Shown in pieces: positions 5,009-63,070 of a DNA stretch of 63,183 nt (positions within the stretch are counted from its first letter, which is position 1; every line of letters starts with the position of its first letter). The notes beneath the pieces are model-generated. The model saw only the letters and a list, made by a program, of their open reading frames with translations, made no database searches and was not told the DNA's origin. A program made the position numbers and the translations under genes. Origin of the DNA: Mesorhizobium sp. M7A.T.Ca.US.000.02.2.1 (GTDB lineage: Bacteria; Pseudomonadota; Alphaproteobacteria; Rhizobiales; Rhizobiaceae); assembly GCF_003996995.1 (NCBI RefSeq), contig NZ_RZTT01000003.1, positions 1 through 63,183 on the forward strand, given 5' to 3'.

Positions 5009-5045
5009 GGTGGTCGCTCCGATTTGCGGGTTGTAGTGATCGATC

Positions 5046-5442: not shown

Positions 5443-5479
5443 TTGACGCGTTAGGCCATTTTTTTGACATCTGCCGCCA
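5443..5479 (-). promoter_or_regulatory. AraC-type direct-repeat operator, copy C
   Basis: TTGACG (5443-5448) and TTGACA (5464-5469) are 21 bp apart, each followed after six bases by GCCA (5455 and 5476). In the gene sense the -10-like TCTAGT comes 19 bp after the proximal half-site. It faces the permease/aminotransferase remnant and then the CapA-like gene. Confidence 0.72.
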
Positions 5480-38786: not shown

Positions 38787-38823
38787 TTGACATTTCATGC
38801 CACATTTTCGATAGTGCCCGCCA
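38787..38823 (-). promoter_or_regulatory. AraC-type direct-repeat operator, copy J (acyl-CoA synthetase / AraC gene)
   Basis: TTGACA (38787) with GCCA (38799), and TCGATA (38808) with GCCA (38820), at 21-bp spacing. The second half-site differs from the TTGACA type and matches copy I (CGATA). It lies in the divergent region, in the same relative orientation to the synthetase gene as all other copies, and 33 bp before the AraC gene at 38857. Confidence 0.7.
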
Positions 38824-38856
38824 ACAGGGGTCGTTGTCGACACCTAGGAGTACATC

Positions 38857-40023: not shown

Positions 40024-41067
40024 TTAACGGTCCCTGTCTGGACGCATTGTGAGAAATGTCAGGATATCCTCACGAGCAATCATGCCGACGTTCGTACCGC
40101 CTCTCGAAACGAGAAGCGTTCCAGTTCCAGAGATACCCCTCCGTATGACCTCCGCCACTGGCGTTTGGGCGTCGATAGAACCGCCGTCACAGGCGACATT
40201 TAAGGAATCGACGGTCTCCGAGGTTGATTGCATGATGTCACCGGCAACCAACTTATCCAAGAGGGTGACATGGCTTACGAATTCTCGAACGTAAGGTGTC
40301 GCAGGTCTCAGTAGAATGTCCTGCGGCGTGCCGATCTGTTCCACCTTTCCTTTGTTCATGATCGCAATGCGATCACCTAATCGCGCGGCTTCCTCGATGT
40401 CGTGAGTTATGAATACGGTCGTTTTTGTCGCTTTTGCCGAGATCTCTATGAACTGATCCTGTAGCTGCCTTCTGATAATGGGATCCAACGCGCTGAACGG
40501 TTCGTCCATCAGCAGAATTTCCGGATCTGTTACCAAGGCGCGCGCTAGACCCACCCGCTGCTGCATCCCACCGGACAACTCGTCGGGATAAAAAGTCCCC
40601 CACTCTGGCAGTTGGACTCTTTCTAGCGCCTCTTGGGCCAGCTGACGTCGCTCAGTCTTCTTGACCCCCCGAATTTCTAGTCCCAGCGCCACGTTCTCCG
40701 TCACAGTTCGGTTTGGTAGTAGTGCAACATGCTGGAACACCATGCCTATCTTTCTCGAGCGCAACTGCAGCAAACGTGCCTCGCTCAAATCGTTAATTGA
40801 CGCCCCATCGATAACGATTTCTCCGGCGGTAGGCTTGATCAGGCCATTGATATGGCGCAGCAGAGTGGACTTCCCACTTCCGGATAGGCCGATTATACAA
40901 AATATCTCACCTTGATTTATGTCGAAGCTAACGTCTTCGACGCCCACGACATATGGGGGTGCCGGGGCACCGGAAAGACGTGATCGTTTTATCTCCTCCA
41001 GCGCATCGCCTTCGCGCGCCGCGTAGATCTTCCAGACATTTTTGAACTCAATCTTCTTGACTGACAA
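40024..41067 (-). CDS. proV: glycine betaine/proline-type ABC transporter ATP-binding protein
   Basis: A 347-residue ATPase of the ProV/OpuAA/ChoV family. It begins KKIEFKNVWKIY, has Walker A GLSGSGKST near residue 65, signature LSGGMQQRV and Walker B ILLMDEPFSALDP. A CBS-type regulatory region follows (about 275-345, VAEVIRRGISGTGTLLVSRGG). The start is assigned to TTG at 41067 with AGGA 8 bases upstream; another TTG at 41109 with AAGGG is possible, and no ATG fits. Third transporter gene of a five-gene unit. Confidence 0.87.
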   Translation of the reverse strand: MSVKKIEFKNVWKIYAAREGDALEEIKRSRLSGAPAPPYVVGVEDVSFDINQGEIFCIIGLSGSGKSTLLRHINGLIKPTAGEIVIDGASINDLSEARLLQLRSRKIGMVFQHVALLPNRTVTENVALGLEIRGVKKTERRQLAQEALERVQLPEWGTFYPDELSGGMQQRVGLARALVTDPEILLMDEPFSALDPIIRRQLQDQFIEISAKATKTTVFITHDIEEAARLGDRIAIMNKGKVEQIGTPQDILLRPATPYVREFVSHVTLLDKLVAGDIMQSTSETVDSLNVACDGGSIDAQTPVAEVIRRGISGTGTLLVSRGGTNVGMIAREDILTFLTMRPDRDR

Positions 41068-41118
41068 TTTCGAAATCCTGATCCAGGCGTGAAGATGAAG
41101 CGTTCGCAATATACCCTT

Positions 41119-42129
41119 CTACGGCTTAGCCGCTTTCAAGGCCTCGTTTACCCAACCGTCAAATGTGGCACGGTGCGCCTTGATCCAGTCTTGAGTGTGG
41201 CGCTCAATATCTTCGGGTGACTTTTCGCCCTCTTCGATCAAGCTGTTCTCAGCTTCAATGTCCGCCACTGGCACCGTGGCCAGTTCGAAAAACTTGTTGG
41301 CCGCGGGATTTTTTTCCAAAAACTTATTGTTCGCGAGCACTCGGATAGTATTAGGAGCAAACCCAGTGTTCGTTCCGTCTGGAGATTCCGTGTTCGCGTT
41401 CGGGTCATCAGGGCTTGCCGAGAAGGGCACGTTTAGCCAAACGACATCGGTTCCAGGCTTCAGGCGATTATTGAGCCAATTTGGCGACCACGTATAATAC
41501 AAAATTGATTGACCATTCTTGTACCGTTCCAGCATATCAGCCACCAAGGCAAAGTACTCGCCCTGATCATGATGAATTGTATCCCGCAATTTATAGGTCG
41601 TCAGATGGTGTTCAATTATCCGCTCGCATCCCCAACCGGGGTTGCATCCCACGAGATTGGCCTTCCCGTCACCGTCACTATCGAAAAGTGCTGCAAGCTT
41701 CGGGTCAGAGAGCTGCCCGAAGTTCGATATGCTGTATTTGTCAGCTGTGCGTTTGTCGATAAGATAACCCTGTTTCACGTTGGGCGTGAAGTTTCCTATT
41801 CGCGTCATCACCTTCTTGCCACCAGCATTCTCGAAGAACGCGTCATGAAGGGGCTGCCAATGGTGCACCGTGTAATCGACATCGCCGTTAGCTACAGCGA
41901 TGTGAATTGTGGGATAGTTCGCGATCTGAGGCTCCTCAACCGTATAGCCGAGTGCTTCTAGCCCATGCTGAACGATCAGGTGTTGGAACACCGAGGTGTA
42001 ATCTTCGCCTTTAATCTGTCGAACTACTATCCCTTTTCCTGGGAGATCTCGAGCCAAGACGCCAGGTGCGAGCGCGACGGTGAACACCGCAACGGCGGTT
42101 GCCAATTTTTTCAAAACTGACGTGATCAT
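41119..42129 (-). CDS. proX: glycine betaine-type periplasmic binding protein
   Basis: A 336-residue binding protein, close to E. coli ProX along its length. The signal peptide is residues 1-26 with cleavage after GVLA, leaving RDLPGKGI. After removal the three tryptophans Trp65, Trp140 and Trp188 (HHWQPLHD, CNPGWGCE, YYTWSPNW) fall exactly where the aromatic cage of E. coli ProX binds the quaternary ammonium group. This is strong evidence that the ligand is a betaine. The gene lies between ProW and ProV. Confidence 0.93.
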   Translation of the reverse strand: MITSVLKKLATAVAVFTVALAPGVLARDLPGKGIVVRQIKGEDYTSVFQHLIVQHGLEALGYTVEEPQIANYPTIHIAVANGDVDYTVHHWQPLHDAFFENAGGKKVMTRIGNFTPNVKQGYLIDKRTADKYSISNFGQLSDPKLAALFDSDGDGKANLVGCNPGWGCERIIEHHLTTYKLRDTIHHDQGEYFALVADMLERYKNGQSILYYTWSPNWLNNRLKPGTDVVWLNVPFSASPDDPNANTESPDGTNTGFAPNTIRVLANNKFLEKNPAANKFFELATVPVADIEAENSLIEEGEKSPEDIERHTQDWIKAHRATFDGWVNEALKAAKP

Positions 42130-42160
42130 TTCATCCTCCTTGAGATCTGCTTATTGTTGT

Positions 42161-43093
42161 TCATTTTCTTCCACGAAACAGGAAGCTCAGGATCGCCAGA
42201 GGCCGCGATCCTGGCCCTGTGGCGCCAACACGCTGTCTGGTAGTCTGCGCAAACGACTGTGATAGGCGGTCGATCGCAATCGCCAGCATCACAATTCCAA
42301 AACCCCCAACGGTTGCTTGGCCGAGATCTAAGCGGCCTATACCGCTCAACACGAGTTGCCCCAGCCCTGGAACAGAGATCATCGAAGAAACAACCACCAT
42401 CGACAGGGCAAGCATGATTGTCTGATTGACGCCAGTCATTATGGCCGGCCGCGCCTGGGGCAACTGAACCTTAAACAGGACCTGCCAATCATTCGCTCCG
42501 AACGCACGAGCGGCTTCAACCAGATCGTGACTGACCTCACGAATGCCAAAGTTGGTCAGTCTGATCACCGGGGGCAGCGCATATATCATCGTAACGATCG
42601 CACCCGGGACCTTGCCAATGCCAAACAGCATCACAACTGGCACCAGATAAACGAATGAAGGGATCGTTTGCATGAGATCCAAAACAGGCCTCATGCCGGC
42701 TTGGACCTTTTCACTACGCGACATGAGGATTCCGAGAGGAATGCCGATGATAAGACATGCGAGAACGCAACTTACGACGAGTGATAGCGTCGTCATCGCC
42801 TCTATCCACGCGCCGATGAGGCCGATCACAATCAACGGCATAACCACCGCTACCGCCACGCCAGCCCCACCTGTCTGCCACGCGACTAACCCGACAACCA
42901 CGAGCAAAACAGTTGGCGGACAGCTATGCAATGCTTGTTCCACGGCGTTGAGAAGAAGCTGAAACGGAACCTTGATAGACTGGAACATCTCACGATAGTG
43001 TGAGGTGACCCAGGCCATTCCGTTGTTCACCCATTCCCTGACCGGAATGTCGATTGAGGCAAATGGGTCAAGAAGGTCAATTCTTTCAGGCAT
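42161..43093 (-). CDS. proW: glycine betaine-type ABC transporter permease
   Basis: A 310-residue permease. It begins [21 protein letters not shown], the start typical of ProW, then has about seven hydrophobic segments and the EAA loop [21 protein letters not shown] near 208. The ATG at 43093 overlaps the thiolase stop by 8 bases, supporting it over the open frame to 43192. Remnants of a related permease are at 5161-5345. Confidence 0.9.
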
Positions 43094-44264
43094 CGCGACC
43101 ACTCCCTGCTTCAAACAGTGCGCCCGCCCCCATACCGCCACCCACACACATTGTGACGACAAGGTATTTGCCAGCTCTTCGGGACAACTCAATAAGTCCG
43201 TGGCCAGTCAGACGGGCGCCCGTCATCCCGTATGGATGTCCAAGGGCAATCGCGCCACCATTCACGTTTAATCGTTCAGAGGGAATCTCCAATCGATGCT
43301 GACAGGGGAGTACCTGGGCAGCGAAGGCCTCGTTAAGCTCCCATAGGTCGATATCGCTGGTTGCAACTCCCGCCTTCCTAAGCAGTGGCGGCACTGCCAA
43401 TGTCGGTCCTAATCCCATCTCGTCCGGCTCGCATCCCACGACCGAGTATCCCCGAAAAATGCCCAGAATAGGCAGCCCCGATCGCACCGCGTAATCTGCG
43501 TCAGCTAGAACGCATGCTGATGCGCCATCGGACATCTGGCAGGCGTTTCCGGCCGTAATCGTGTACTCACTTCCGAGGATCGGCTTAAGTCCGCTCAAGG
43601 TTTGCTCGGTTGTGCCAGGCCGGATGCCTTCATCTCTCTCGATGATTGCCGAACCTGCAGGGTCCAGTTCGTCATCTATGGTGATCGGCGCGATCTCGCT
43701 GCTGAATAGACCCCCTTCCCGCGCGGCCGAAGCTCGACGTTGGCTTTGCGCCGCATACGCGTCCTGATCTTCTCGTTTGATCCCGTATCGCTGAGCGACG
43801 ACTTCAGCGGTCTGGAGCATGGGCATGTAGATTTCGGGCTTGTGGGTTTTGAGCCATGGCTCGGGAATCCAGCCTTTGCGTATCTGCTCGTTATCCACAA
43901 TGCTAACTGAGTCCACCCCCCCTGCAATACCGACGTCAATCTCGCCACATGCGATGCGATGAGCAACCTGAGCGATTGCCTGCAGCCCGGAGGCACACTC
44001 TCGGTTTACAGTTGCAGCTGCAACCGACGTCGGCAGGCCTGCGCGAAGTGACGACAGGCGCGCAATATTTCGTCCTGCGGCGGCTTCAGGCAGTGCGCAT
44101 CCAATGATCGCGTCTTCGACTCGACCGGGTTCAATTCCAGCACGCGCTACAGCGTGAAAAATAGCGTGCGCAGCCAGCGAAACGGGATGAACCGCGCGCA
44201 GCGCTCCTTTGTAAGCTCTGCCTACAGGAGTCCGAGCTGTTGAAACGATAGCTACAGTTCGCAT
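43086..44264 (-). CDS. acetyl-CoA acyltransferase (thiolase)
   Basis: A 392-residue thiolase. Cys90 in RECASGLQA is the acyl-carrying cysteine, [15 protein letters not shown] holds the catalytic His, and [13 protein letters not shown] near the C-terminus holds the second Cys, so it should be active. It begins 3 bp after the dehydrogenase stop and overlaps proW. In context it would cleave a 3-oxoacyl-CoA; a 3-dehydrocarnitinyl-CoA to betainyl-CoA plus acetyl-CoA reaction is inferred from the betaine transporter in the same transcript. Confidence 0.92.
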
Positions 44265-44267
44265 CTT

Positions 44268-46337
44268 TCACCTGACATCCGCAAATCTCATGCCGCTCTT
44301 GGCAAGGAATGCCAGTAGAGGGGCAGGTTCCCATACCACCGGGCCGTGTTCTTCTCTAAGTTCGATGACCTGGTCGTAGACTCGTTTTGGGCCCAAATGA
44401 TCGGCCCAGAACATCGGACCTCCCTTGCGACGTGGAAAGCCCAGCCCATTCATCCAAACTACATCGATATCGCCGGAACTCCTCGCAATGCCGTCACCGA
44501 GCAGCCAGGCGGCGTCGTTGACCACAGGCAGCAGGCATCTTTGCAGTATCTCGTCATCGGAGATGTTCCGTCTCTTGAACCTTAGTTCGGAGGAAGTCGA
44601 CTCGATCAACGCGGCGACCTCGATGTCCGGATGCGCCTCGCGCTGTCCCGGCTCATATCGGTACCAACCCTTGTTTGTTTTCTGACCATAGCGGCCAGCT
44701 TCGTAGATCCGGTCCGCGACGTGCGGATAACGCATTCCGGCCGGGTATGACGCCGCCTGCCTTACATGATAGCTGATATCATTTCCGGCCATGTCGTTCA
44801 TCACGAATGGCCCCATCGCGAACCCGAACTCTTGAAGCACTCTGTCGACCTGTTCCGGAAGGGCGCCCTCTTCCAACAAAAAGAGTGCTTCGCGTTGGTA
44901 CCCGGCAAGTAGCTTGTTGGCTACGAAAGCGAACTGGTTGCCGACGACCACCCCGATCTTACCAATGTGCTTGGCGACAGCTCTCAACTGCTCGATAGTC
45001 CCTTCCGCTGTCTCCCTGCCTGGAATTATTTCAACCAGCTTCAGGAGATGAGCAGGACTGAAGAAATGCATCCCTGCAATCTTTTTTGACCGCCCTGTTG
45101 CAGCTGCAATCTCGTCAATATCGAGCGATGACGTGTTGGTGACCAAAACGGCGTGGTCTGGACATATACTGTCTAGCTTGGCGAAGATCGTTTTCTTTAG
45201 TTCAAGGTCTTCGGACACCGCTTCGACAACCAGATCGGCCTCTTCTAGCGCCTTCATATCGCCAATTGCTATGATATTGTTGCGTGCCGTGTCGCCCTGC
45301 TCCTGGGATATGCGACCACGCCTAACCATGGATTTCAACGACGCACCAACGGCCTCAAGGCCCCCAGCTAGCCGATCTCCAGCTTGATCGTGAACCAACA
45401 CCTTCACGCCGCCTGTCGCAAAGCTGATTGCAATTCCGCGACCCATGAAGCCGAAGCCAACCACTGCAACGCATCTCGGAAGACTTAAGGTCTCGGCACC
45501 AGACCGGAAATGAGGCAGATCAGTTGCAAGCTCGACCCTGCTTGCATGTAATAGTGCTATTGTCTCGGCTTCCGCGAGCAGCTTTTCGTTGTGTCCGTTT
45601 TCAATGGCGATGTTTTCTTCAAGGGAAGCTGACTGGGCTCCTAGAACGCATTCCATAGCCAGTTTCCCAGCCGGTGCCTTCAAGGAAGCTGGAAACGATT
45701 GCTTGAAATCCTCAATGATTTCCTGCCGGCTTTTCTCAGTTGGGCTTTTTGAACGCCTCGGACTGCGATCCGTCCCGACCCGAATTGCCTCATCCACCAA
45801 CGCTTCACGGCTGCTGACCAGTTCATCAACCACTCCGAGCGCGTGCGCGGCATTTCCGGTAATGTTCTTCCCCCCGACGATCATTTCAAGGGCGCATTGC
45901 AATCCTGCCAATTCACTCAGATGAAGAGCGGCGGCACCTAAAGGAACAAGCCCCCATGTCGCCTCGGGAAACGCAAGCTGTACGCTCGGTGTGGCAACGC
46001 GCGCGTGGCAGGCGAGCGCTATGGACAGAGCCTCCCCAATGGCGCGCCCCTCAAGAGCCGCGACAACGGGGACCGCGGACGTCTTGATCGTGGTAATCAG
46101 TTCCTGCAAGCCGCCAAAATCTACCTTCTCTGAGGATCTTGAAATGTCGGTTCCAGAAGAGAATTCCGGTCCTGCGCCCCTCAGAATGATCGCATCGATG
46201 TCTTTGCGCGTCGCAAACTGGTCGATCAAAACTTTCAATCGAGCACGAGCAATGGCAGTGATCGCATTCAGCGGAGGATTGTCTAGATAGATGACCGCAA
46301 CCCGACCAAACAGTTTGTAGTGAGGGGCACCCAACAT
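44268..46337 (-). CDS. enoyl-CoA hydratase-like / 3-hydroxyacyl-CoA dehydrogenase fusion (FadB/FadJ family)
   Basis: A 689-residue fusion: a crotonase domain at about 1-190, an NAD-binding dehydrogenase domain with GFGFMGRG at 294-301, and C-terminal helical domains from about 470. The dehydrogenase His lies in MHFFSPAH. In the crotonase domain the usual GGG-x-E segment reads AIGEALS (99-105), so the first catalytic Glu is replaced; the second (FPE, Glu125) is kept. Hydratase activity is therefore doubtful, and the separate CaiD-like hydratase may supply it. The start at 46337 has GGAGA 7 bases upstream; the open frame to 46712 only reads through the operator. First gene of a unit with thiolase, ProW, ProX and ProV. 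Confidence 0.9.
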   Translation of the reverse strand: MLGAPHYKLFGRVAVIYLDNPPLNAITAIARARLKVLIDQFATRKDIDAIILRGAGPEFSSGTDISRSSEKVDFGGLQELITTIKTSAVPVVAALEGRAIGEALSIALACHARVATPSVQLAFPEATWGLVPLGAAALHLSELAGLQCALEMIVGGKNITGNAAHALGVVDELVSSREALVDEAIRVGTDRSPRRSKSPTEKSRQEIIEDFKQSFPASLKAPAGKLAMECVLGAQSASLEENIAIENGHNEKLLAEAETIALLHASRVELATDLPHFRSGAETLSLPRCVAVVGFGFMGRGIAISFATGGVKVLVHDQAGDRLAGGLEAVGASLKSMVRRGRISQEQGDTARNNIIAIGDMKALEEADLVVEAVSEDLELKKTIFAKLDSICPDHAVLVTNTSSLDIDEIAAATGRSKKIAGMHFFSPAHLLKLVEIIPGRETAEGTIEQLRAVAKHIGKIGVVVGNQFAFVANKLLAGYQREALFLLEEGALPEQVDRVLQEFGFAMGPFVMNDMAGNDISYHVRQAASYPAGMRYPHVADRIYEAGRYGQKTNKGWYRYEPGQREAHPDIEVAALIESTSSELRFKRRNISDDEILQRCLLPVVNDAAWLLGDGIARSSGDIDVVWMNGLGFPRRKGGPMFWADHLGPKRVYDQVIELREEHGPVVWEPAPLLAFLAKSGMRFADVR

Positions 46338-46437: not shown

Positions 46438-46474
46438 TTGACACGTTCAGCCACTTTTTTGACATCCGCCGCCA
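46438..46474 (-). promoter_or_regulatory. AraC-type direct-repeat operator, copy A (dehydrogenase/thiolase/ProWXV promoter)
   Basis: TTGACA (46438) with GCCA (46450), and TTGACA (46459) with GCCA (46471), 21 bp apart. The -10-like TCTAAG is at 46418-46413, 19 bp past the proximal half-site. Just downstream is a possible leaderless four-codon frame (ATG GAG CTC GTG TAA, 46404-46390). The dehydrogenase begins at 46337. Confidence 0.78.
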
Positions 46475-46836
46475 TCGATGATTTGCGGTTTGCCCGCGAA
46501 TGCGAGGAGAGGCGGGTGCGAAGGCGGGCGATTTGGCCCGCAATCCAGGGGATAACCGAGGCGACGCAGTCCTCCAGCGCCTTCACCCAACTCGAAGTCG
46601 GCAAGGCAACGCGAAGAACGGACGAATGGCTCGTTCCGGTCGCGACGAGCTCCCAGGCAGATCGCCCGCTCGATGCCATTGAGAAGGAAAGCGGACGAGT
46701 TGCGCCACCCATGCCTCGGGCGCGGTTACGGCTGATCGCCTCAGGCCAACGCTGCCACGGGTCTCACCAGTCCGGCAAGTCTAATGACGGCAGTGCTTGG
46801 AAAGCCCATGGTGGGACGAGCTATAGCACGACGTCC
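46475..46836. other. intergenic region without recognisable gene
   Basis: About 360 bp between the operator and the stop of the MmgE/PrpD gene. The minus strand is open in frame with the dehydrogenase, but this stretch resembles no family, has no start signal and lies upstream of the promoter. Confidence 0.6.
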
Positions 46837-50384: not shown

Positions 50385-52205
50385 CTAGCTCTCGATTATC
50401 GGCAGGTCGATGTAACAACCCGCCGCGCCACGATGAAATTTGAGCAACGGCGGCGCGCCGTCGGCGGGCACATCGGCAAACGTAGTCTTGTCGCTGCCAG
50501 CAAGACACACCCGCAGACGGTATCCCGCCGGGAGGCGGGCGGAGATCGGATGCAACGTGAAGGTCAGGATGGCGGGCTCGCCCGGAATGAGCGGTTCGGC
50601 GTCGCGCTTCAAATAGCTATGCTGGGGTCCAAGCGCGCTGAACGGTGAGTCGGTCCACACCTTCCGGTGCAGGGCGCGCAGTTGGCCCTCGGTGAGATAA
50701 CAGGATACGCCATCCGGCTTAACGGCTTCGAGATATACGAAAAAGGCGCCGTCCTCGCGGGTGGAGGTGATGTTCAGGTGCACGACAGGATGTCCGGTGA
50801 TCGTGAGTTCGCTGATCAACGGATCGCTGGTATAGCCGAGGCGCACTCCGTCAAGCTGTCGCCGATCTCCGTAATCGACTTTCAGCGCGCCGCCAGTACT
50901 GGTGGCCCACCGGTTTGAGGGAACCTCTGCCAGCGCAGGATCGACCTGGAACGAGTCGAACCCCGGCCCGCCGGGCGACGAACTCAGCCGCGAATCACTT
51001 GCCATGTACCACCGTTGGCGGGTAGCCGGGAGCGGCCAAAAGCGGGTCGATTTCCAGCCCTCTCCAAGAGTGTAATAATGGAGGATCTTCCCTTGCTCGC
51101 GGGCGGCATGACCGTTGAAGCACAAGTCCGCGAAGCGGACGTCGTTTGCGTCCTGGGTCGGCGGCGTTGGCGGGATCGCGTCGCCATCGGCACGGAGGGG
51201 ATCCCAAGGGTAATCACCGCCGTGGTTCCACGGACCGATGATCACGTTCATCGGATTTGACTGCCCCACGAAACGGCGAACGGCTCCCTGCGCGGTACCG
51301 GCGTCAAACCAACTCGCCCAGTTTTGGATTGGCGCGCCTGAGCGAGAGACGCGGTCCGCTGCTTCCATGACGCTCCAGTCGAGCATCGACGCTCCGCCCC
51401 AAGCCGCGAGGCGATCGTCCTTGAACGTCACCTGCTCGAGACCCTCCCAGACCGGTGGCACGGACTCATGATCGCGCAGGGCCGCGGCAAGGTCCGCCTC
51501 CCCGCCCGGCCCGACGGAACGAACTCCTGGCGACGGTCGGCGCTCGCCATCCCCGCTGACGACCATATTTAGGTCCTGGTTCTTGCTGCGGCTGCCCCAG
51601 AGCCGCGCGCCGGAGACGGCGGGAATTCCACTTGGAAGCCAGACATATTCATAGGGGTCGTAGGAAGCAAACCGCGGTATGATGCCCTTCAGCGCCGGAT
51701 GGTTTCGCTCTGCCATCCATTCCGCAGTGTTGGCGGTATAAGATGAGCCATAGCCGACGACACGACCCGTTGACCAGGGCTGTGCAACGATCCAGTCGAG
51801 CACCTCCGTGAAATCCAGTGTCTCCTCGCGCCAGCAGGGATATGGCCACACGCCGAAGGAAGCACCGGTCCCGCGAACATCACCAACGACCACGGCATAG
51901 CCATGCGGCACAAACCGGCCGGCATCGCGGTGGGGCGGGTCTCCCTTGATGCCGCGCCAGTAGCGCGTCATCACCAAAATGGTGTCGCGCCTTGTGCTGG
52001 CGTCGTCGCCCAGGGGACGGACGATGTCCAACGCAAGCCTTACGCCGTCGCGCATGGTCACGTACACAGATTCCAGCGGACCGAGCTTGTATTGCCCCGC
52101 GGCCGTGCCATTGAGATCTAGGCGAAAGTGCGTCTGCTCACGATCGGAGCCCGTTTCCGAGCGGCTATCGAGCTGGGTTGCGCCACATTCCTTCGATACA
52201 CTCAT
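50385..52205 (-). CDS. CocE/NonD-type hydrolase (X-Pro dipeptidyl-peptidase family), copy 2
   Basis: A 606-residue serine hydrolase. The alpha/beta-hydrolase domain carries GYGSSYTANTA with the nucleophilic Ser near residue 166, followed by the helical cap and IIGPWNHGGDYPWDP, typical of the family. A C-terminal jelly-roll domain (from about 420) ends PILHFHRGA-like, CYIDLPIIES. The ATG at 52205 is chosen because GGAG lies 7 bases upstream and it gives the same length as the paralogue at 52479-54299; the open frame reaches 52244. No signal peptide. Substrates in the family are X-Pro peptides, esters such as cocaine, and acylated amino acids. Confidence 0.87.
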   Translation of the reverse strand: MSVSKECGATQLDSRSETGSDREQTHFRLDLNGTAAGQYKLGPLESVYVTMRDGVRLALDIVRPLGDDASTRRDTILVMTRYWRGIKGDPPHRDAGRFVPHGYAVVVGDVRGTGASFGVWPYPCWREETLDFTEVLDWIVAQPWSTGRVVGYGSSYTANTAEWMAERNHPALKGIIPRFASYDPYEYVWLPSGIPAVSGARLWGSRSKNQDLNMVVSGDGERRPSPGVRSVGPGGEADLAAALRDHESVPPVWEGLEQVTFKDDRLAAWGGASMLDWSVMEAADRVSRSGAPIQNWASWFDAGTAQGAVRRFVGQSNPMNVIIGPWNHGGDYPWDPLRADGDAIPPTPPTQDANDVRFADLCFNGHAAREQGKILHYYTLGEGWKSTRFWPLPATRQRWYMASDSRLSSSPGGPGFDSFQVDPALAEVPSNRWATSTGGALKVDYGDRRQLDGVRLGYTSDPLISELTITGHPVVHLNITSTREDGAFFVYLEAVKPDGVSCYLTEGQLRALHRKVWTDSPFSALGPQHSYLKRDAEPLIPGEPAILTFTLHPISARLPAGYRLRVCLAGSDKTTFADVPADGAPPLLKFHRGAAGCYIDLPIIES

Positions 52206-52478
52206 CAGTTTGCTCCGGTCGAGCGCGAATGGCACAACGCCCACATTGATTTTGCCCGTAAATATTCTGGCTCCGACCGGTCAAATGTCAGTTGCCAAAT
52301 GGCAGGATTGTTTTGTCAGTCTTAGACCTACAGGCCGCCTTCTGGTGCTCACGTCCTAACGGCTCCTGGTGGCCGTGGCGTCATACCGGAATCCGGGAAG
52401 ACCTTCTACACGCACCCAGGGTCCAGTTAGCTGTTATCGGCCTCCATTGTCGTTCGTAATGGGCTGATTGGCTTTCGC

Positions 52479-54299
52479 TCAGCTTTCGATGATCGGCAGG
52501 TCGATGTAACAACCCGCCGCGCCCCGATGAAATTTGAGCAACGGGGGCGCGCCATCGGCGGGCATATTGGCAAAATTCGGCTTGTCGCTGCAAGCAAGGC
52601 ACACCCTGAGGCGGTAACCTGAGGGAAGACGGGCGGAGATCGGGAACAGGGTAAAGATCAAAATGGCGGGCTCGCCAGGAATGAGCGGTTCGGCGTCGCG
52701 TTTCAAATAGCTATGCTGAGGTCCAAGCGCGCTGAGCGGTGAGTCGGTCCACACCTTCCGGTGCAGCGCTCGCAGCTGACCTTCCGTGAGGAGATAGGAC
52801 TCCCCGTCCGGCTTTACGGCTTCGAGATAGACGAAAACGGCGCTGTCCTCGCAGGTCGAGGTGACGTTCAGGTAGACTACGGGATGTCCGGTGATCTCGA
52901 GGTCGCGCGTCAACGGCTCGCTCGTATAGGCGAGGCGCCCATCGAGGAACGTTCGGCGATTTCCAAACCCCAGGCGGTCGGTATCCCACCGCATCGACGT
53001 GTCGTCCTCCTGCGCCGCAGGGTTGACCTGAAGCGAGTCTAAGCCGGCACGATCAGGCGATGCTGTAAGTCGGAAGCCAGTTGAAATGTACCAACGTTGG
53101 CGGGTGGCCGGGACTGGCCAAACCGCGGTCGATTTCCAACCCTCTCCTAGCGTGTAGTAGTGGAGGACTTTCCCTTGCTCCCGGGCAGCCCGGCCAGAAA
53201 AGCACAAGTTCGCAAAGCGGAGGTTATTCGCGTGTTGCATCGAGGGCGTGGGCAGGATCGGCGCGCCATCTGCCTGGAGCGGATCGTAGGTGCCGCTGCC
53301 GTCGTGGTTCCACGGGCCTATGATTACGTTCATCGGATTTGACTGGAGCAGGAAGCGGCAAACGGCTCCGTGCGCCATCCCGAGGTCGAACCAACTCGCC
53401 CAGTTTTGGTATGGGGTGCCCGAGCGAGAGACCCGGTCCGCCGCTTCCCTGTTGCTCCAATCGAGCATGGACGCTCCGCCCCAAATCGCGAGGCGATCAT
53501 CCTTGAACGTCACTTGCCGAAGACCCTCAGATAAGGATCGTCCCGGCTGGTGATCTCGTAGGGCCGCGGCAAGGTCGGCCTCGCCGCTAGGCCCGACGGG
53601 ACGAACGCCCGGCGAGGGCAAATTGAGGTCCAGGTTTCTGACCATGTCAGCCCATGCCGTTCCGTAGGCGGTGGACACTCCACCGGGAAAGTAAACCTCT
53701 TCGTAGGGGTCGTAGGAGGCAGCCATCGGTATGATGCCCTTCAGCGCCGGATGGTTGCGCTCCGCCATCCATTCCGCGGTGTTGGCGGTATAGGACAAGC
53801 CATAGCCGACGACACGGCCCGTGGACCAAGGCTGTGCAACGATCCAGTCGAGCACGTCCGAGAAGTCCAGGGTCTCGTCGCGCGAGCGGGAATACAGCGA
53901 AACCCCGAAAGATGCACCGGTGCCGCGAACGTCTCCGACGACCACGGCATAACCATGCGGCACAAAGAGGCTCGAAAAGTTCTTGTGCAGCACGAGCTGG
54001 TCGCCATCACCGGCAGAGAGGTCTGCCTTCTGGCCACGCCAGTAGCGTGTCATCACCAGAATTGTGTCGCGCTTGGTGTTGCGGTCGTCGCCCAGTGGAC
54101 GGAAGATATCCAAAGCAAGCCTCACGCCGTCGCGCGGAATGGTCACATAGACCGATTCCAGCGGGCCGGGCTTTGCTCGCCCCGCAGCAGTCCTATGGAG
54201 ATCAAGGTGGAAAATTGAGTCTTGCGTCTGCTCAAGAGCGAAGCCCGTTGCCGAGCACCTCTCGAGCTGAGTTTCACGAGGTTCGTTCGATCCTCTCAC
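52479..54299 (-). CDS. CocE/NonD-type hydrolase (X-Pro dipeptidyl-peptidase family), copy 1
   Basis: A 606-residue paralogue of the next gene downstream, similar along its whole length and with an identical C-terminus (CYIDLPIIES). The nucleophile is Ser169 in GYGLSYTANTA; GPWNHDG follows. It starts at GTG 54299 with GGAGGA about 8 bases before it. It lies 94 bp after the FAD oxidoreductase on the same strand, so all three probably form one unit controlled from operator copy I. The pair is a tandem duplication that has begun to diverge; which peptide or ester each cleaves is unknown. Confidence 0.87.
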   Translation of the reverse strand: MRGSNEPRETQLERCSATGFALEQTQDSIFHLDLHRTAAGRAKPGPLESVYVTIPRDGVRLALDIFRPLGDDRNTKRDTILVMTRYWRGQKADLSAGDGDQLVLHKNFSSLFVPHGYAVVVGDVRGTGASFGVSLYSRSRDETLDFSDVLDWIVAQPWSTGRVVGYGLSYTANTAEWMAERNHPALKGIIPMAASYDPYEEVYFPGGVSTAYGTAWADMVRNLDLNLPSPGVRPVGPSGEADLAAALRDHQPGRSLSEGLRQVTFKDDRLAIWGGASMLDWSNREAADRVSRSGTPYQNWASWFDLGMAHGAVCRFLLQSNPMNVIIGPWNHDGSGTYDPLQADGAPILPTPSMQHANNLRFANLCFSGRAAREQGKVLHYYTLGEGWKSTAVWPVPATRQRWYISTGFRLTASPDRAGLDSLQVNPAAQEDDTSMRWDTDRLGFGNRRTFLDGRLAYTSEPLTRDLEITGHPVVYLNVTSTCEDSAVFVYLEAVKPDGESYLLTEGQLRALHRKVWTDSPLSALGPQHSYLKRDAEPLIPGEPAILIFTLFPISARLPSGYRLRVCLACSDKPNFANMPADGAPPLLKFHRGAAGCYIDLPIIES

Positions 54300-54392: not shown

Positions 54393-55733
54393 TCAACTCC
54401 AGGGGAATGGCGAGTGCGAGGTCGGATGCAGCTTGCCTTCGGCGAAGCGCGAGAAGCGGAACGGCCGCAGCAGGTCGCTCTCGTTACCGCAGATGTCGTC
54501 GGCCACCAGCTTGCCGACGCCGATCATCTTGTAGCCGTGGTTGCTGTCGGCGATCACGTATACGTTCTCGCAGAAGCGGTCGAACACCGGAAACGAATCC
54601 GCTGTAAAGCTGCCGATGCCGCCGGACGGCTCCTTCTTGTATTTCGGCATGGTGCCTTCGAAGCGCTTCTGGCAGAAGGCCAGCGCCGATACCCACATGT
54701 GGGCAAAGTCGTCGCCGACAATGAAGTCCGGGCTCTCCGGGCCGTAGGGATCAATCTTCACCTGCTCTGGCGCAGTCGGCACCTTGAACGGCATGGCGCC
54801 GCCCTGCACGCCCCCGAAGTGGAAATCAGGCTTGTAGTAGATGCCCCACAGCTTGTCCGTGATCACCGTGCCGTCGACATCGGAATGGAGCGGCGCATCG
54901 GTGTCCACATGGATCACTGGCGGCATCTTGCCGTCATTGGTGCGCTGCAGCTCCGGGTTCACGCCGAGCGTGCCTTCCTGCAGCGACCAGAAGGTCCACA
55001 TTGGCACGTCCTGGTGCATCTTGCCGTCCCGGCCCTTGATCGAGATCGCCTTGGGCAGTTCGAGCATGTCCCAGATCTGCTTGACCCACGGGCCGGCGCC
55101 GATGATGACCTGGTCGCAGCCAATCTTGCCCTTGTCGGTGACGACGGCCTTGACCGCGCCATTGGCGTCCTTCTCGAAACCGAGGACCTTCACGCCGGTC
55201 GCGATCCGCACGTCCTCGTTCTCCGCTTTCTTGGCGAGGCCGTAGATCGAGCGCGTGTTGTTGGCATAGCCCCCCTTCTCCTCGTGCAGCACCGACGTGA
55301 TGCCTTTGGCCTGCCAGTCGGAGAAGATGCCCTGCATGTACTTCATGCAGTCCTTCTCGCCTTCGATGAAGACCGACGGATAGCCAATCTCCTTCTGCTG
55401 CTGGTAAATGCTGGCAACGTCCGCGTGCATCACCTCGGGGCTGATCTGCATATAGCCGACCGGGTGGTAGGAGAAGGCCTCCGGGTCGCCTTCCCAGACC
55501 GAGACGCTGTGCGCCATCAGGCGGCGCATGGCGGGCTGGAAGTAGTTGTTGCGCACCACACCGCAGGCAATACCGGAGGCGCCCGCCGCGATGGCGGTCT
55601 TGTCGACGACCAGGATGTCCTTGCCGCTGCCCTTGCCGCTCTTGCGCAAATTCTCGCCCAGATGCCAAGCGGCCGACAGGCCGTGGATGCCGGCGCCTAC
55701 GATGACGTATTTGACGTGACTCGGAAGTCCCAT
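54393..55733 (-). CDS. FAD-dependent oxidoreductase of the DAO / sarcosine oxidase beta-like family
   Basis: A 446-residue flavoenzyme. The FAD-binding Rossmann motif VIVGAGIHGLSAAWHLG begins near residue 10. Other family features are IAAGASGIACGVVRNNYFQP near 56 and the C-terminal IADSNHGYKMIGVGK, close to sarcosine oxidase beta and dimethylglycine dehydrogenase-like proteins. The ATG at 55733 is preferred: earlier ATGs at 55769 and upstream overlap the predicted -10. It is the first gene before the two CocE-like hydrolases. It may oxidise a secondary or tertiary amine; dimethylglycine would fill a gap in the betaine pathway of this window (inference). Confidence 0.85.
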   Translation of the reverse strand: MGLPSHVKYVIVGAGIHGLSAAWHLGENLRKSGKGSGKDILVVDKTAIAAGASGIACGVVRNNYFQPAMRRLMAHSVSVWEGDPEAFSYHPVGYMQISPEVMHADVASIYQQQKEIGYPSVFIEGEKDCMKYMQGIFSDWQAKGITSVLHEEKGGYANNTRSIYGLAKKAENEDVRIATGVKVLGFEKDANGAVKAVVTDKGKIGCDQVIIGAGPWVKQIWDMLELPKAISIKGRDGKMHQDVPMWTFWSLQEGTLGVNPELQRTNDGKMPPVIHVDTDAPLHSDVDGTVITDKLWGIYYKPDFHFGGVQGGAMPFKVPTAPEQVKIDPYGPESPDFIVGDDFAHMWVSALAFCQKRFEGTMPKYKKEPSGGIGSFTADSFPVFDRFCENVYVIADSNHGYKMIGVGKLVADDICGNESDLLRPFRFSRFAEGKLHPTSHSPFPWS

Positions 55734-55792
55734 AAGAGCAATGTCCTGTTGAATTTCGAGGCTGAACATAGTTGGGGATCCGCGACAACCAT

Positions 55793-55829
55793 TTGACATA
55801 TGGCGCCACATTACCGATAGTATCCGCCA
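55793..55829 (-). promoter_or_regulatory. AraC-type direct-repeat operator, copy I (FAD oxidoreductase promoter)
   Basis: TTGACA (55793) with GCCA (55805), and CCGATA (55814) with GCCA (55826), 21 bp apart. The distal half-site is of the CGATA type, as in copy J. AACTAT follows 19 bp past the proximal half-site as a possible -10, about 35 bp before the ATG at 55733. Confidence 0.72.
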
Positions 55830-56015
55830 TATCGTCGATGTTGGAAGCGCACCTATCGGATCGTGGCAGGCTAGTGCTGCTGGTTGAGCTGGTTAGCACC
55901 GATCCAAATCGCGTCAGCGCCGCGATCCCGCTGCTGATGCGGTGCGATAATGTCTCCAGGAATTCGTCTGTCGCCCTCTTTGAATGCAATCTGATGTGCG
56001 CCGCGATTTCCGCGC

Positions 56016-56690
56016 TTACAGGGATTCGTACAAGGAATCGATTGTTTCGGTCCGGTACGGCATCGAGAACGGCTTTTCGAAGCGCCATGCGCGATAGTCA
56101 TTCCCATCCGCCTTAGCCAATTCCTCCGCCCCAAAGATCATCCCGCCCCTCAGCCAATTAGCCATGTCAAGCATGGCAGTCTTGTGAATTGTCCCGGTCG
56201 CGCTCCCGCACGCATCTTTCACCAGCGTGATCCGAAAATCGCGCCAAAGAGCATCCCATACCGTCGTCTCCAGGCAGGCCTCCGTCCAAACCCCGAAGAT
56301 GATCAGGTGCTCGATATCCATGCGGTTCAGAACAAGATCGAGCTTCGTGCCGTAAAAGGCGGTGAAGCGCTGCTTGTCGATGACGGTGTCCCCGTCCTGC
56401 GGGGCGACCTCGGGACAGATCTCGCCGCGCGTTGAACCGGCGACGCTGTGCGGCGGCCGGCCGCGGTCATCCAGTGACTCATATCGCGGCGCGTCGATAC
56501 CCCTCGGGTCGAGCCAATGGCGCGTGTAAATGATCGGAAAACCAGTTCGTCGACAAGAGTCCAACACCTTGTGAGCCTTGCTCAGAACGTCTGGATAATT
56601 CTCCACCGCGCAAGCGCCCTCAGGGAGGTTCTCGCCTTGCAGATCAACGGCTAGTACTACGGTTCGCTCCAGCCGGAACCAATCAGTCAT
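56016..56690 (-). CDS. isochorismatase-family cysteine hydrolase
   Basis: A 224-residue hydrolase. The family triad is complete: Asp16 in LAVDLQGE, Lys106 in VIDKQRF and Cys139 in VWTEACLET, so amidase, nicotinamidase or related activity is expected. The ATG at 56690 has GAGGAG 6 bases upstream; the open frame to 56738 is not needed. It stands alone behind operator copy E, separated from it by a fragment of a duplicated dehydrogenase gene. Relatives include carbamoylsarcosine amidase and ureidoacrylate hydrolase; the substrate is unknown. Confidence 0.88.
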   Translation of the reverse strand: MTDWFRLERTVVLAVDLQGENLPEGACAVENYPDVLSKAHKVLDSCRRTGFPIIYTRHWLDPRGIDAPRYESLDDRGRPPHSVAGSTRGEICPEVAPQDGDTVIDKQRFTAFYGTKLDLVLNRMDIEHLIIFGVWTEACLETTVWDALWRDFRITLVKDACGSATGTIHKTAMLDMANWLRGGMIFGAEELAKADGNDYRAWRFEKPFSMPYRTETIDSLYESL

Positions 56691-56779
56691 TTCAGCTCCT
56701 CTCACACAATGGGTAAACTGAGTTGCAAGCTCGGCCAATTACTTGCATGTGTTCGGGCACGGCAAGCAGCCAAAGGTCT

Positions 56780-56945
56780 ATACTAGCGATATTTTGTTCA
56801 CGCGAAGGCCCCTACGGCCCAATCCATAGCCAGTTTCACAACCGGTCTCTTCAAGGAACCTGGAGACCTTGCTTGAAATCTCCGATCGTATCGTGTCGTC
56901 TCTTCTCAGTTGGGCTCTTTTGGGCGCCTCGAGCTTCAATCCCTA
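56780..56945 (-). pseudogene. fragment of a duplicated hydratase/dehydrogenase gene (internal part)
   Basis: Nucleotides here align without large gaps to 45605-45770, inside the gene 44268-46337 (residues about 190-245). Shared runs include ATCCATAGCCAGTTTC-like and CTTCTCAGTTGGGCT words. It lies downstream of operator copy E just as the intact gene lies downstream of copy A, so operator and gene were duplicated together and the gene then eroded. Confidence 0.7.
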
Positions 56946-57023
56946 CCGGCAAATGACGGCGCTCACGAAGCCAAATTCACGCGAGCTCCATCGGCTAAGG
57001 TTAGATGCGCAATTGGGACCGCC

Positions 57024-57060
57024 TTGACGCGCTCTGCCACAGTTTTGACATCTGCCGCCA
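57024..57060 (-). promoter_or_regulatory. AraC-type direct-repeat operator, copy E (isochorismatase-like gene promoter)
   Basis: TTGACG (57024) with GCCA (57036), and TTGACA (57045) with GCCA (57057), at 21-bp spacing. A -10-like TCTAAC lies 18 bp beyond in the gene sense, followed by a four-codon ATG GAG CTC GCG TGA frame. The isochorismatase-like gene starts 334 bp downstream. Confidence 0.74.
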
Positions 57061-57659
57061 TCGAACGCTTAGTTTGGCGACTCCGCCGACATCGGCGGTT
57101 CTGGCAGCACGGCACCCGCTTCGGCCCGAACCGAAATCCCGCGCGGGGTCGATGCGACGTTGCCGGCGTGAGTGAAGGAGACATCGCTAACGCCGCCATC
57201 AGAACCAATGCCTCCGGGCACGGCCGAGCACGATGGCGAAGGCCAGCACCACCGCCGAGAGCAGCAGCATGAAAAGAACAAGGTAGAGCGGCCACAACGT
57301 TGTCGCCGCCCCTCGTCATAGTTGCGGGGCCGTTTCTCCCGATGGCGAGCTCAAAGTAGCCTCGGACATTGGCAGGTATTGTCATCCATGATCGACCTTA
57401 TGCAGCTAGCGCAGTTGATTAACGTGATGCTTGTCGACGGTTGGAGGTCGCAGGCAGGAGCTGAGCATAGATACATTTAGCTGCGTGCATTCTGGTTGCG
57501 CTAAAGCAGAAAACAATCTGAAGGTGGGTTACCTCCAAAACAGCCCCCGTTTGACCCAAGCCCGCGCCCCCCGATCCAAGGTCGTTCAGATCTGGCCGCA
57601 TCAGTTCGGGCACGGCGGACGCTCCGAACTCTTTTTCTGGGATTTATCCCATTGCCCAA
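57061..57659. other. decayed sequence with a membrane-protein scrap
   Basis: No gene is supported. On the minus strand around 57320-57200 one frame reads TLWPLYLVLFMLLLSAVVLA and a basic tail, like the last helix of a membrane protein, but nothing before it is coherent. The rest is unassigned. Confidence 0.4.
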
Positions 57660-57770
57660 GCTGAGCGGCTCGCTCCTCTTGCATATCGCATGCCGCCATT
57701 GGCACGGAAATGCCAATCGAGGAGGACAAGTCCGCATAGCACCGAACCATGCTTCTCGAAACTCGCCTAA
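57660..57770 (-). pseudogene. fragment of a duplicated hydratase/dehydrogenase gene (3' end)
   Basis: This stretch aligns with 44280-44385, the last 35 or so codons of the gene 44268-46337 (GPVVWEP, LAFLAKSGMRFA). It lies downstream of operator copy F. It is a second eroded copy of the operator-plus-dehydrogenase module. Confidence 0.6.
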
Positions 57771-57857
57771 CCGCTCGGTCTCCAAATGGCGGCGTTCGTG
57801 ACGCCGATTCACGCGAGATCACCGGGTGATGATTAGATCGCGCAAATTAGAAACGCA

Positions 57858-57894
57858 TGGACATTTGCGGCCATTCTTTTGACATCTGCCGCCA
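57858..57894 (-). promoter_or_regulatory. AraC-type direct-repeat operator, copy F (orphan)
   Basis: TGGACA (57858) with GCCA (57870), and TTGACA (57879) with GCCA (57891), at 21-bp spacing. TCTAAT follows 20 bp beyond in the gene sense. Only a remnant of the dehydrogenase gene remains downstream, so this copy appears to drive nothing intact. Confidence 0.68.
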
Positions 57895-57939
57895 TATTCC
57901 CACTTGACGATGATGAACCCCACATGCGGGTTCATCGCC

Positions 57940-58365
57940 GGCATCGCCGCGCGCATGGAAGGCGCCCCTTTTCATCACAGGCTTCCAATTCGAAATTAGC
58001 GCTTTCGCCAGCCCGGGTGGGGATCAACTCGACCGGCCAGCTGGCTCGGCTCATACCGGGAACCTGCCTTGACGTGGAGGGCAGCACCGACACCCGCCAG
58101 CGCGTGGGGCGGCGGGCTGCCCGAAATCGGTCACGTCGGTCTCGCCGCCAGCCGTAGCGCGAGACCGATGGTTCCGGTCCCCTCCGCGGCGAGCATGAGG
58201 CGTCGCGAGGCCTTCATTGAGACCTGGGCGACATCCCCGACAGCGGCCTCTTAAGCCGCCATGCCGCGGCCCTCCTCCATGCAGGCAAGGACACTGGCCT
58301 AGCCGCCGGCCTCCAGGTAACCCGATCGGGCGGCAGGCCCGCATGGGCGACGGCGGGCGCAAAAT
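57940..58365 (-). pseudogene. imuA remnant (SOS mutagenesis cassette)
   Basis: Reading leftward, pieces in changing frames give APAVAHAGLPPDRV, LACMEEG, KASRRLMLAAEGTGTIGLALR, then TRWRVSVLPS and PVELIPTRAGESANFE. This is the order of the C-terminal half of ImuA, the RecA-like partner of ImuB and DnaE2 in damage-induced mutagenesis. In-frame stops and shifts show it is dead. Confidence 0.65.
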
Positions 58366-58374
58366 ATCGGCTGG

Positions 58375-58600
58375 GTGATGCACCAGAGCACGAGGCTCGT
58401 CGTGCTGTACCTGCCGAGCTGGTCCACCGACCGTCTGCAGCGGATGACCGGCGTAGCGGCGCCGCGCGCTGGCGCGCCATTCGTGGTCGACGGCCGTGAC
58501 GGGAGCAGACGGATCGTGACGGCCACCGATGCCGCAGGCGCTGCCCTCGGGTGCGCGTCAGTATGCCCGCTGCAAACTGGACCACGTTAGCGCCTGCGGC
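58375..58600 (+). pseudogene. imuB remnant, N-terminal part
   Basis: The plus strand encodes RLVVLYLPSWSTDRLQRM near the start and RIVTATDAAGAALG further on, matching the beginning of ImuB (Y-family polymerase-like). The frame then shifts (LRVSMPAA) and fades. imuA and imuB are normally co-directional; here the two remnants point away from each other, so an inversion or independent insertions occurred. Confidence 0.6.
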
Positions 58601-61029: not shown

Positions 61030-61345
61030 GCGAACTGGTCTCCCGGATCGATGGGATCATTGAGACGCCGCCGAGATATGCTACCGCCGCAAGAAACCCG
61101 TCCTGACGGGCGGATCGCCGCCGCTGACGACGGGCCGAGATCGGCTGCGACAATGGCGAGGGGGTTCGCGTCGCTTTCGCGCTCGACTGCTGCCACCGCG
61201 AGGCCATCGCCCATATTGCCACTAAATTGGGCATCAGGGGGTAAGGAGGTGCCCGACCTCATCATCATCGCTGTCGAAGGCCGCTTCGGCTAGGTCAACC
61301 GGTTGACCCGACACGATCGAGCGGCTGAGCGACACCGTCCTAATC
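61030..61345 (+). pseudogene. IS3-family OrfB remnant, part 1
   Basis: Frames in succession give ELVSRIDGIIETPPRY, CDNGEGVRVAFALDCCHREA, HIATKLGIRG, IIIAVEGRFG and TIERLSD. This is the order of the integrase core of an IS3-family OrfB. Several frameshifts and stops are present. The next conserved blocks of the same protein appear at 62926, beyond the IS110 element. Confidence 0.65.
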
Positions 61346-61594
61346 GCGGAACGAAATGGAGCCTGCAGTCAGGTCTCTCTGTTCGTCAGCATGCCCTTGC
61401 TGCGTGACGTTGGTCAAGTCGTCGAGCCAGGCGGCTTCCACCGGCAAGGGAAAAGGTCTCGTCCATAGCAAACACAGGATCCGCACGCAGGCGGCCCTCA
61501 CCGTCCTCAACACGAGCTTCTGATCCAGGCGGAAGACCCGAACATTATCTACAGGGTCATCGAATCGATGCCCTCACGGCCCTAGCTGACACCT

Positions 61595-61627
61595 GACTAC
61601 CGGCCCTTCAACGAAGGGCCGGTAGTC
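61595..61627. repeat. perfect 15-bp inverted repeat at the IS110 transposase 3' end
   Basis: GACTACCGGCCCTTC at 61595-61609 and its exact complement at 61613-61627 are separated by three bases. It overlaps the last codons of the transposase frame and could act as a terminator-like hairpin or part of the element's end, although no T-run follows. Confidence 0.6.
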
Positions 61628-62925
61628 GGAACCACCTTTGACGACAGCGTGCACGACGCGGGCCATCTGGCGGTAATAGCGGTCACTGCCTTGCGGCGTA
61701 GATCGGGATTGTCGCGATCCCGCGCAATGTAGCGTTCGAACTTATGACGGAAGCCATTCTCCCGCTGGCGGATGGCGACTTGTCCGGCGATCCACAGGGT
61801 GCGGCGCAGCCGAGCATTGCCGAATTTGGAAAGGCGGGTCTGGCCCCGATATTGGCCTGACTGCTGTGTCGAGAGGTCCAGCCCGCAGAACTTTAGAAAC
61901 TGGCGATGATGAGCGAAACGGCGAAGATCGCCGGCTTCGGCAATGATGGTCAATGCGTTGATCGGTCCAATGCCCGGGATTTGTCGCAGGAGCTGATAAT
62001 CCTGGCTGTGCCGCAACAGCTCGTCGGCCTGCGCTTCGATCTCATTGCGCTGCCGGATCAGGCTGCGTGCTTCGTCAATGACCATCCGGAACATGCGAAT
62101 GGCAGGGGCATCAAGCGGCAGCGGCAGTCCGATCGATGAGCGCGCCGTCTCGTAAATATCCATCAGAATCTGTGTCTTGCTGACCTTGCGGCCGACGACA
62201 TCCCAAGCTGCTGTCACAAACTCCTCCTTTGTCAGCGCCGTGATGCTTGCTGGCGTCGGAAAGGTATGGAGGAAGGCGAAGAACCAATCGCTGCGGCTGT
62301 TCCCCCGGAATCGATCGATCTCGGGAAAACACAGTGGCAGGTAGTGCGTCAGGATACGGTGCTGGATCTCGGTCTTGGCCCTGGCGATCGCTTCATGGGT
62401 CTTCGACAGTTCCCGCACGTCGTTGATGCCGGCGCGCAGCGGATCATTTAGACCTGCGTCGCCTGGATCCTGAGCATGTGCAGCGTCACCTGGGCATCCT
62501 TTGGATCGTTCTTGTCCCAGCTGTTGTGCAACGCTTCTCGTGTTCGGGCCAGCGCCAGCGACGACACCAGCCGCACCTCAAAACCCGCATTAGCCAGGCG
62601 CCATGCTATCGGCCGGTGATAGTTCCCGGTCGCCTCAAAGGCGCAGACCACAGGGCGGCCGTACGCCTGCAGCACTTCGATCTGATGGTCGTGCTCAACA
62701 CGGGTGTTGAGGACCAAAAGGCGACGCCGGCGCTTGTGGCCCGGTGCTTCGATCAGAACTTCATTGCGCACCTTGGCAATGTCGATCGCTACCAGCACCG
62801 CGGCGGCGGGTGTAGAATCTGAAGTGGTCATGGTCGGTCTCTCTGGAATGGGTTGTGAACATTCACATTCTAGAGAAACTTTGACTGGCCATGGCCGCCT
62901 CGACAGCGTTGCGCGCCTGCAGCGA
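61597..62925 (-). mobile_element. IS110-family element with frameshifted transposase
   Basis: The transposase reads leftward from 62831 (DEDD domain, VAIDIAKVRNEV, then DKNDPKDA) and from 62418 to 61597 (transposase_20 domain, RQIPGIGPINALTIIAEAGD and FCGLDLSTQQSGQY). The two frames are separated by a one-base loss near 62450, where the left copy at 2870 is intact. The normal ARVVHAVVKGG-type C-terminus lies in another frame from about 61668, so there is a second frameshift. The element is inactive as it stands. Its right edge at about 62925 is set by where similarity with the left copy ends; the left edge is not resolved. Confidence 0.82.
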
Positions 62926-63070
62926 AACTACATCGCCAACGAGATCAGGTCCGCGACATTGGACTGGAGCCGAGGGCGACTCCAGTTTCAGAGCCCGCAA
63001 GCGAGACCTTTCGTCAGGACGATGAAACGAGATCATGTCCAAGTCTCGCAGGGCGCCCGCTGGCATGGAA
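62926..63070 (+). pseudogene. IS3-family OrfB remnant, part 2
   Basis: Immediately beyond the IS110 edge the plus strand reads YIANEIR, then DIGLEPRATPV in one frame and FVRTMKRDHVQVS in another, the blocks that follow TIEWLSDNGS in IS3-family OrfB proteins. With part 1 at 61030-61345 it shows that IS110 landed in an IS3-type element, with OrfB on the plus strand. The last 110 bases of the window are unassigned. Confidence 0.62.

Follow-up and report, generated by a model that had tools for sequence, protein, structure and literature searches.

How does a bacterial regulator acquire new target genes? The question is raised by a 63,183-nt stretch of DNA from Mesorhizobium sp. M7A.T.Ca.US.000.02.2.1 (the window), in which we find eight operators, each made of a pair of 16-nt direct repeats, 21 bp apart and reading TTGACAnnnnCnGCCA. 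The original prediction on this DNA was that the element had spread at least partly by duplication of a whole promoter-gene module, the duplicated genes being subsequently lost or replaced. The remnants of one source operon, which we find in operon order and sense behind operators at four other loci, bear out this proposal.

Operators, promoter module and candidate regulator

The window strain is represented by a 939-contig draft assembly of a 6.65-Mb genome, in which no further operator site was detected outside the window at up to three mismatches. Two relatives were used for comparison: Mesorhizobium wenxiniae (G145, contigs C37 and C41), which has nine operator sites, and a third Mesorhizobium (G051, contig C179), which has one site with two mismatches and half of the module of locus F. 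This half module (L062:3747-3835) is found with a FecCD operon. When 99 genomes of the genus, including that of the window strain and excluding M. wenxiniae, were scanned at up to three mismatches, six other genomes gave a match; of these, the one in G051 was judged real from its flanks, the five others having three mismatches each.

A profile search extended the similarity beyond the 38-nt operator: about 110 nt are common to all eight operator loci, consisting of the operator and some 75 nt downstream. The reference is operator A (46438-46475, minus strand; TTGACAnnnnCnGCCA appears twice on the plus strand). Operators E (57024-57061) and F (57858-57895, with TGGACA instead of TTGACA in the first repeat), both on the minus strand, align with it, including the ~75 nt downstream of A. 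Over the aligned module, A and E are 76% identical, the promoter and leader part of the E module lying at 56949-57023 (minus strand). In M. wenxiniae, a module with half an operator (L061:13450-13542, that is, C41:73450-73542) is apparently another decayed copy; its leader resembles that of the SBP_bac_5 operator, which corresponds to operator 20752 of the window.

Operators of the AraC/XylS type typically pair two direct repeats at a distance of about two helical turns, a layout that the 21 bp between the repeats here fits. The candidate binder of all operators is an AraC-type regulator (Arabinose_bd and HTH_18 domains) encoded on the plus strand at 38857-39906. Adjacency, together with the joint presence of regulator and operators in the window strain and in M. 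wenxiniae, where the protein is 97% identical, suggests that this one protein acts at all of them. Among 397 genomes sampled from the order, one, its own, contained it at E≤1e-50 (M. wenxiniae and G051 were tested apart). No match was obtained in G051 at E≤1e-20, and this genome thus keeps operator remains without a detectable regulator gene. Two weaker operator-like sites, at 38787-38824 and 55793-55830, agree with each other in a second half that differs from that of the eight operators (TTGACAT..GCCACATT..CGATAGT..CCGCCA), and one of them separates the AraC gene from an acyl-CoA synthetase-like gene that diverges from it. Their apparent counterparts in M. wenxiniae are weak matches at C41:14973 and C37:13976.

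A phylogeny of the operator flanks, which had been put forward as a second line of evidence, turned out to be too weak to show parentage. Orthologous groups are recovered for all eight window operator loci in the module tree, and its deep order is weak: A groups with E in the best tree at a support of 60/72, the grouping of F with the dpp module of M. wenxiniae is neither shown nor rejected (p 0.18), and A with F and A with P yield p values of 0.088 and 0.24, respectively. Given this weak deep order, the derivation of E and F from A is argued from the relics described below, not from the tree.

A probable intact operon behind operator A

Operator A precedes, as predicted, an intact dehydrogenase gene (44268-46337, minus strand), from which the relics at E and F derive. 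Its Pfam domains (3HCDH_N, 3HCDH, and ECH_1) refine the prediction: it encodes a bifunctional enoyl-CoA hydratase/3-hydroxyacyl-CoA dehydrogenase. Downstream on the same strand (40024-44264), Pfam identifies genes for a thiolase (44264-43086), an ABC permease (43192-42161), an OpuAC-type binding protein (42129-41119), and an ATPase (41109-40024). Judging from their spacing and strand, these five genes probably form one operon (hereafter, the A operon).

The larger region 22977-46337 carries genes for a sarcosine-oxidase-like alpha subunit, a DAO oxidase, FolD- and PurU-like C1 enzymes, beta-oxidation enzymes, and OpuAC transport. This gene set suggests the breakdown of an N-methylated betaine-like compound, the substrate being deduced from gene content. 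Elsewhere in the window, two tandem S15-family peptidase genes (50385-54299; Pfam assignment on the first only) are 74-87% identical in DNA blocks. An IS110-like element (61328-62927) is 97% identical to a stretch of an M. mediterraneum plasmid record, its window ORF scoring just below the NCBIfam cut-off (134.4 vs 140). Among the best 20 of 27 records in a plasmid DNA search, the matches concern the IS110 element alone, and a plasmid protein search gave no match of at least 60% identity for the regulator or the dehydrogenase.

Operon fragments behind other operators

The A operon (46337-40024) was searched at the DNA level (BLAST, E≤1e-3) against 172 kb of DNA, made up of the window, two M. 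wenxiniae stretches of 80 kb and 14 kb, and 14.7 kb from G051. The 14 matches are the operon itself, its orthologue, and 12 others, all of which lie directly behind an operator module, in the same sense, and start 67-215 nt from the operator edge (the F module of G051 was entered at its homology edge, 3835, as only half an operator is present). These 12 matches belong to four loci, namely E, F, P, and M. wenxiniae C41:28405, and operon order and sense are kept at all four. At the protein level (E≤1), the E and F relics match weakly (E 0.003-0.49) because their reading frames are broken; distant paralogues, such as another enoyl-CoA hydratase and other ABC proteins, match too, as expected. The shared module now precedes an isochorismatase gene at E, a PGA_cap gene at P, a FecCD gene at F in the two relatives, and dpp genes at C41:28405.

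The two fragments of the original prediction were both identified as it had proposed. Behind E, 56708-56948 (minus strand) aligns, in gene sense, with a central segment of the dehydrogenase gene, 45777-45509 of A. The F fragment, 57681-57765 (minus strand), aligns with 44364-44281, the 3' end of that gene. The pairwise alignments, specified in advance, were controlled by 200 dinucleotide shuffles under each of two scoring schemes, and no shuffle equalled either fragment: the E relic scored 87 under loose scoring and 120 under strict scoring (best shuffles 17.5 and 32), and the F relic 36 and 57 (best shuffles 18 and 32).

At E, about 0.59 kb of A is missing between the module and the relic, which is frameshifted and contains stop codons in all three frames. 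It is followed by the predicted isochorismatase-like gene (56016-56690, minus strand; Pfam PF00857), the ATG of which, at 56690, is preceded by GAGAGGAG. This gene is 92.9% identical to its M. wenxiniae counterpart at the amino acid level, with 16.7% divergence at fourfold sites, and is under purifying selection. G051 also retains E (C179, L062:1-130), its leader turning to unrelated sequence at about 55.

Layered leaders at loci F and P

The F leader contains scraps of two other transporter operons that the original prediction had not included. Its first layer, the dehydrogenase remnant, is also present on C37 of M. wenxiniae and C179 of G051; it is 64-76% identical to the dehydrogenase gene, and 83.3% identical between the window strain and M. 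wenxiniae. In the second layer (57489-57624, minus strand), a gene for a DppD-type ABC ATPase is represented by its 5' end; in M. wenxiniae, this gene is intact (C41:28611-29693) behind its own operator. The third layer (57105-57385, minus strand) consists of scraps of a FecCD permease gene and the next ATPase gene, which are intact in M. wenxiniae (C37:5009-8017) and on C179 of G051. Thus, the order at the M. wenxiniae F locus is promoter, dehydrogenase scrap, DppD-type ABC ATPase scrap, and intact FecCD-type operon. In M. wenxiniae, the reading frames of the FecCD, ATPase, and binding-protein genes are open; in G051, searches likewise identified a FecCD gene and a binding-protein gene. Between these two relatives, the FecCD gene shows 92.6% amino acid identity and 13.6% fourfold-site divergence, and it is under purifying selection in both. 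F precedes nothing recognisable in the window strain, where the FecCD operon is reduced to scraps.

The fourth relic-bearing locus is M. wenxiniae C41:28405, where the operator is followed by a dehydrogenase scrap shorter than that of F and then by dpp genes; the gene behind this operator is absent from the window strain.

Locus P, with operator 5443-5480 and leader 5480-5049 (both on the minus strand), provides a third relic-bearing leader in the window, also beyond the original prediction. Its homology with A reaches the dehydrogenase start codon plus 5-11 nt (by local alignment, the last bases being ambiguous) and then skips to the permease gene, the third of the A operon, of which fragments from the 3' part (5174-5333, minus strand) match A 42518-42189. 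As the homology runs a few bases past the start codon, the copy included more than the operator itself. These statements are based on BLAST pieces (78-90%), the window row of the P multiple alignment being poor (54-57%, with large gaps). In M. wenxiniae, the relic continues into the first 99 OpuAC codons (C41:54639-54929; 73% amino acid identity, E 1.8e-38), followed by codons 308-471 of a class-III aminotransferase gene (C41:54939-55430; 51% amino acid identity to the gene at C41:68857) and then by the PGA_cap gene. In the window strain, the OpuAC piece is missing, and the next layer is the aminotransferase 3' end (codons 452-497; 5049-5195, minus strand), which overlaps the start of the PGA_cap-family gene (3689-5065, minus strand; 90.8% amino acid identity in M. 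wenxiniae).

Age of the remnants and alternative origins

On the sequence of A, the 5' breakpoints of the window relics fall within about 40 nt of each other, near A 46366 for E and F and near A 46326-46332 for P, and the 3' breakpoints lie about 0.6 (E), 2.0 (F), and 3.8 kb (P) further into the operon. The operators at 1542, 6262, 20752, and 49305 show no A-operon relic; module duplication is thus documented for part of the spread only, as these are four of the seven window operators besides A. At 20752, a leader of about 350 nt (20401-20751) separates the operator from its binding-protein gene, and no match to any A-operon gene was found in it.

These four relic-free operators could also mean that the ~110-nt module inserted on its own, as a mobile or propagating repeat, the gene fragments having arrived separately. 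Homology between A and the other modules indeed ends within a few nucleotides of the upstream edge of the operator, and E has almost no sequence in common with A upstream of it. However, independent arrival does not readily account for relics that keep operon order and sense at all four relic-bearing loci and are detected at the DNA level nowhere else in the 172 kb, nor for homology at P that reaches the dehydrogenase start codon. In addition, the F and dpp modules have an upstream flank in common as well (C37 4340-4583 vs C41 28283-28510, 78%), and none of the three inverted-repeat pairs of at least 20 nt reported for 40000-63183 lies at a module edge. We consider this explanation unlikely.

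Another possibility is that the E and F relics go back to distinct, related dehydrogenase genes that were gained by transfer and not copied within the cluster. The relics are indeed distant from the dehydrogenase gene (64-77% identity for E and F together) and old. At E, relic-to-gene identity (73.9-76.5%) is lower than the identity between the relics of the window strain and M. wenxiniae (81.1%), indicating that the E copy is older than the split between them. However, homologues outside the cluster are far more distant: next to the M. wenxiniae orthologue (92.6% amino acid identity), the best match is only 40% identical (genus scan, 146 genomes, E≤1e-120). In a GTDB pattern scan, the reach of which is limited to close relatives, identity does not exceed 40% over long stretches, two short segments reaching 54% and 47% (18 loci). 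As promoter and relic are moreover collinear with A, separate transfer appears to be a still poorer explanation, with little probability.

Leaders may alternatively be functional RNA or regulatory elements, recruited and conserved, that merely resemble gene remnants. In favour of such a role, none of 200 shuffles folds as well as the F relic segment 57640-57789 (z -2.71), the one such case among four window segments; yet three homologous leaders do not retain this fold strength (z -0.99, 1.08, and -0.91), the folds of the two E segments are no stronger than those of shuffles (z 0.98 and 0.99), and no Rfam match was found in 55500-58500 at E≤1. The mode of decay of the E relic also argues against conservation. 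Between the window strain and M. wenxiniae, it differs 10, 14, and 17 times at the three codon positions and shows 42 gap columns, against 4, 1, and 6 differences and no gap for the intact gene pair, and the corresponding segment of the intact gene is 96.0% identical. Relic divergence is about that of fourfold sites, which ranges from 5.6 to 22.6% in five intact genes; the relic thus changes at roughly the pace of weakly constrained sites. An RNA-structure role was rejected, and the explanation as a whole is highly improbable.

Finally, it is scarcely conceivable that the scrappy F region is an artefact of the draft assembly, fragmented as this genome is, since the E dehydrogenase relic recurs in the independent assembly of M. 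wenxiniae, the F dehydrogenase and DppD relics recur in those of M. wenxiniae and G051, and the window strain's assembly contains no close FecCD or DppD copy elsewhere (best matches 36% and 53%).

A proposed model of repeated promoter capture

We regard it as probable that the A promoter was duplicated, together with parts of its operon, several times before the window strain and M. wenxiniae split (the scars being common to both, they predate it), and that deletions then brought new genes under the same control. Under this model, the operator-promoter of A would have been copied along with various parts of the A operon, an origin by duplication being suggested by the collinearity of the copies. 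Each relic-bearing copy would have retained the ~110-nt module, that is, a two-repeat AraC-type operator with core promoter and leader. Deletions would start just past the module and stop at varied points of the operon, each bringing the promoter to a different downstream gene, which would thereby come under the same control (promoter capture). At F, the process would have gone through repeated rounds: the dehydrogenase remnant would have given way to a dpp gene, itself eroded in favour of the FecCD operon, which was then lost in the window strain.

Such deletions may have occurred through short-homology (illegitimate) recombination: two junctions specific to the window strain at F share about 4-5 nt, older junctions being too decayed for exact placing. 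The clustered 5' and spread 3' breakpoints are consistent with selection keeping the promoter while coding DNA was deleted, although three events are few. The captured genes would be transcribed from the module promoters, with one AraC protein probably activating all copies. More tentatively, and with slightly less than even confidence, one AraC-controlled promoter may have served repeatedly as a docking point for cargo genes, of which many encode transporters. Leaders would then be stratified records of former cargos, and selection would maintain the promoter, which would outlast its cargo as the latter turns over.

Relation to known systems and implications

Promoter capture by deletion or tandem duplication is described in PMC11111574 from laboratory cases in Salmonella and E. 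coli, and the same article cites promoter propagation and regulatory rewiring. In the laboratory cases presented there, a promoter reaches a silent or foreign gene without long homology, leaving a fusion junction; here, too, copies of a promoter stand before unrelated genes, with scars of its former genes at the junction. Unlike those cases, a single regulated promoter is involved, several times, in a natural cluster, with decayed scars that form two or three layers in some leaders. Among the titles and abstract openings listed from the open-licence literature, we found no natural regulon built by repeated capture with gene remnants, which is weak evidence of novelty. Promoter capture itself is known; a regulon repeatedly built in this way, with stratified leftovers, looks like a new form of it.

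Two related phenomena deserve comparison. In promoter propagation, reportedly documented by Matus-Garcia et al. in 2012, homologous promoters precede non-homologous genes in one genome; here, unlike in that process, some copies still hold remnants of the source operon, which point to source and direction. In rewiring by transfer of noncoding DNA, which Oren et al. are said to have described in 2014, regulatory DNA swaps partner genes between strains, whereas the copies described here spread within one cluster.

The gain of targets by a regulator is usually inferred from its end state. Here, the intermediate steps (source operon, copies, deletions, earlier passengers, and present genes) can be read in the DNA of two genomes, and partly of a third, and the order of events is testable. 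They provide a concrete route by which the regulon of a catabolic cluster may grow, other than the creation of binding sites by point mutation. On the more tentative reading given above, this cluster would be a natural, datable record of regulon growth, in which the promoter, and not the gene, is the lasting unit.
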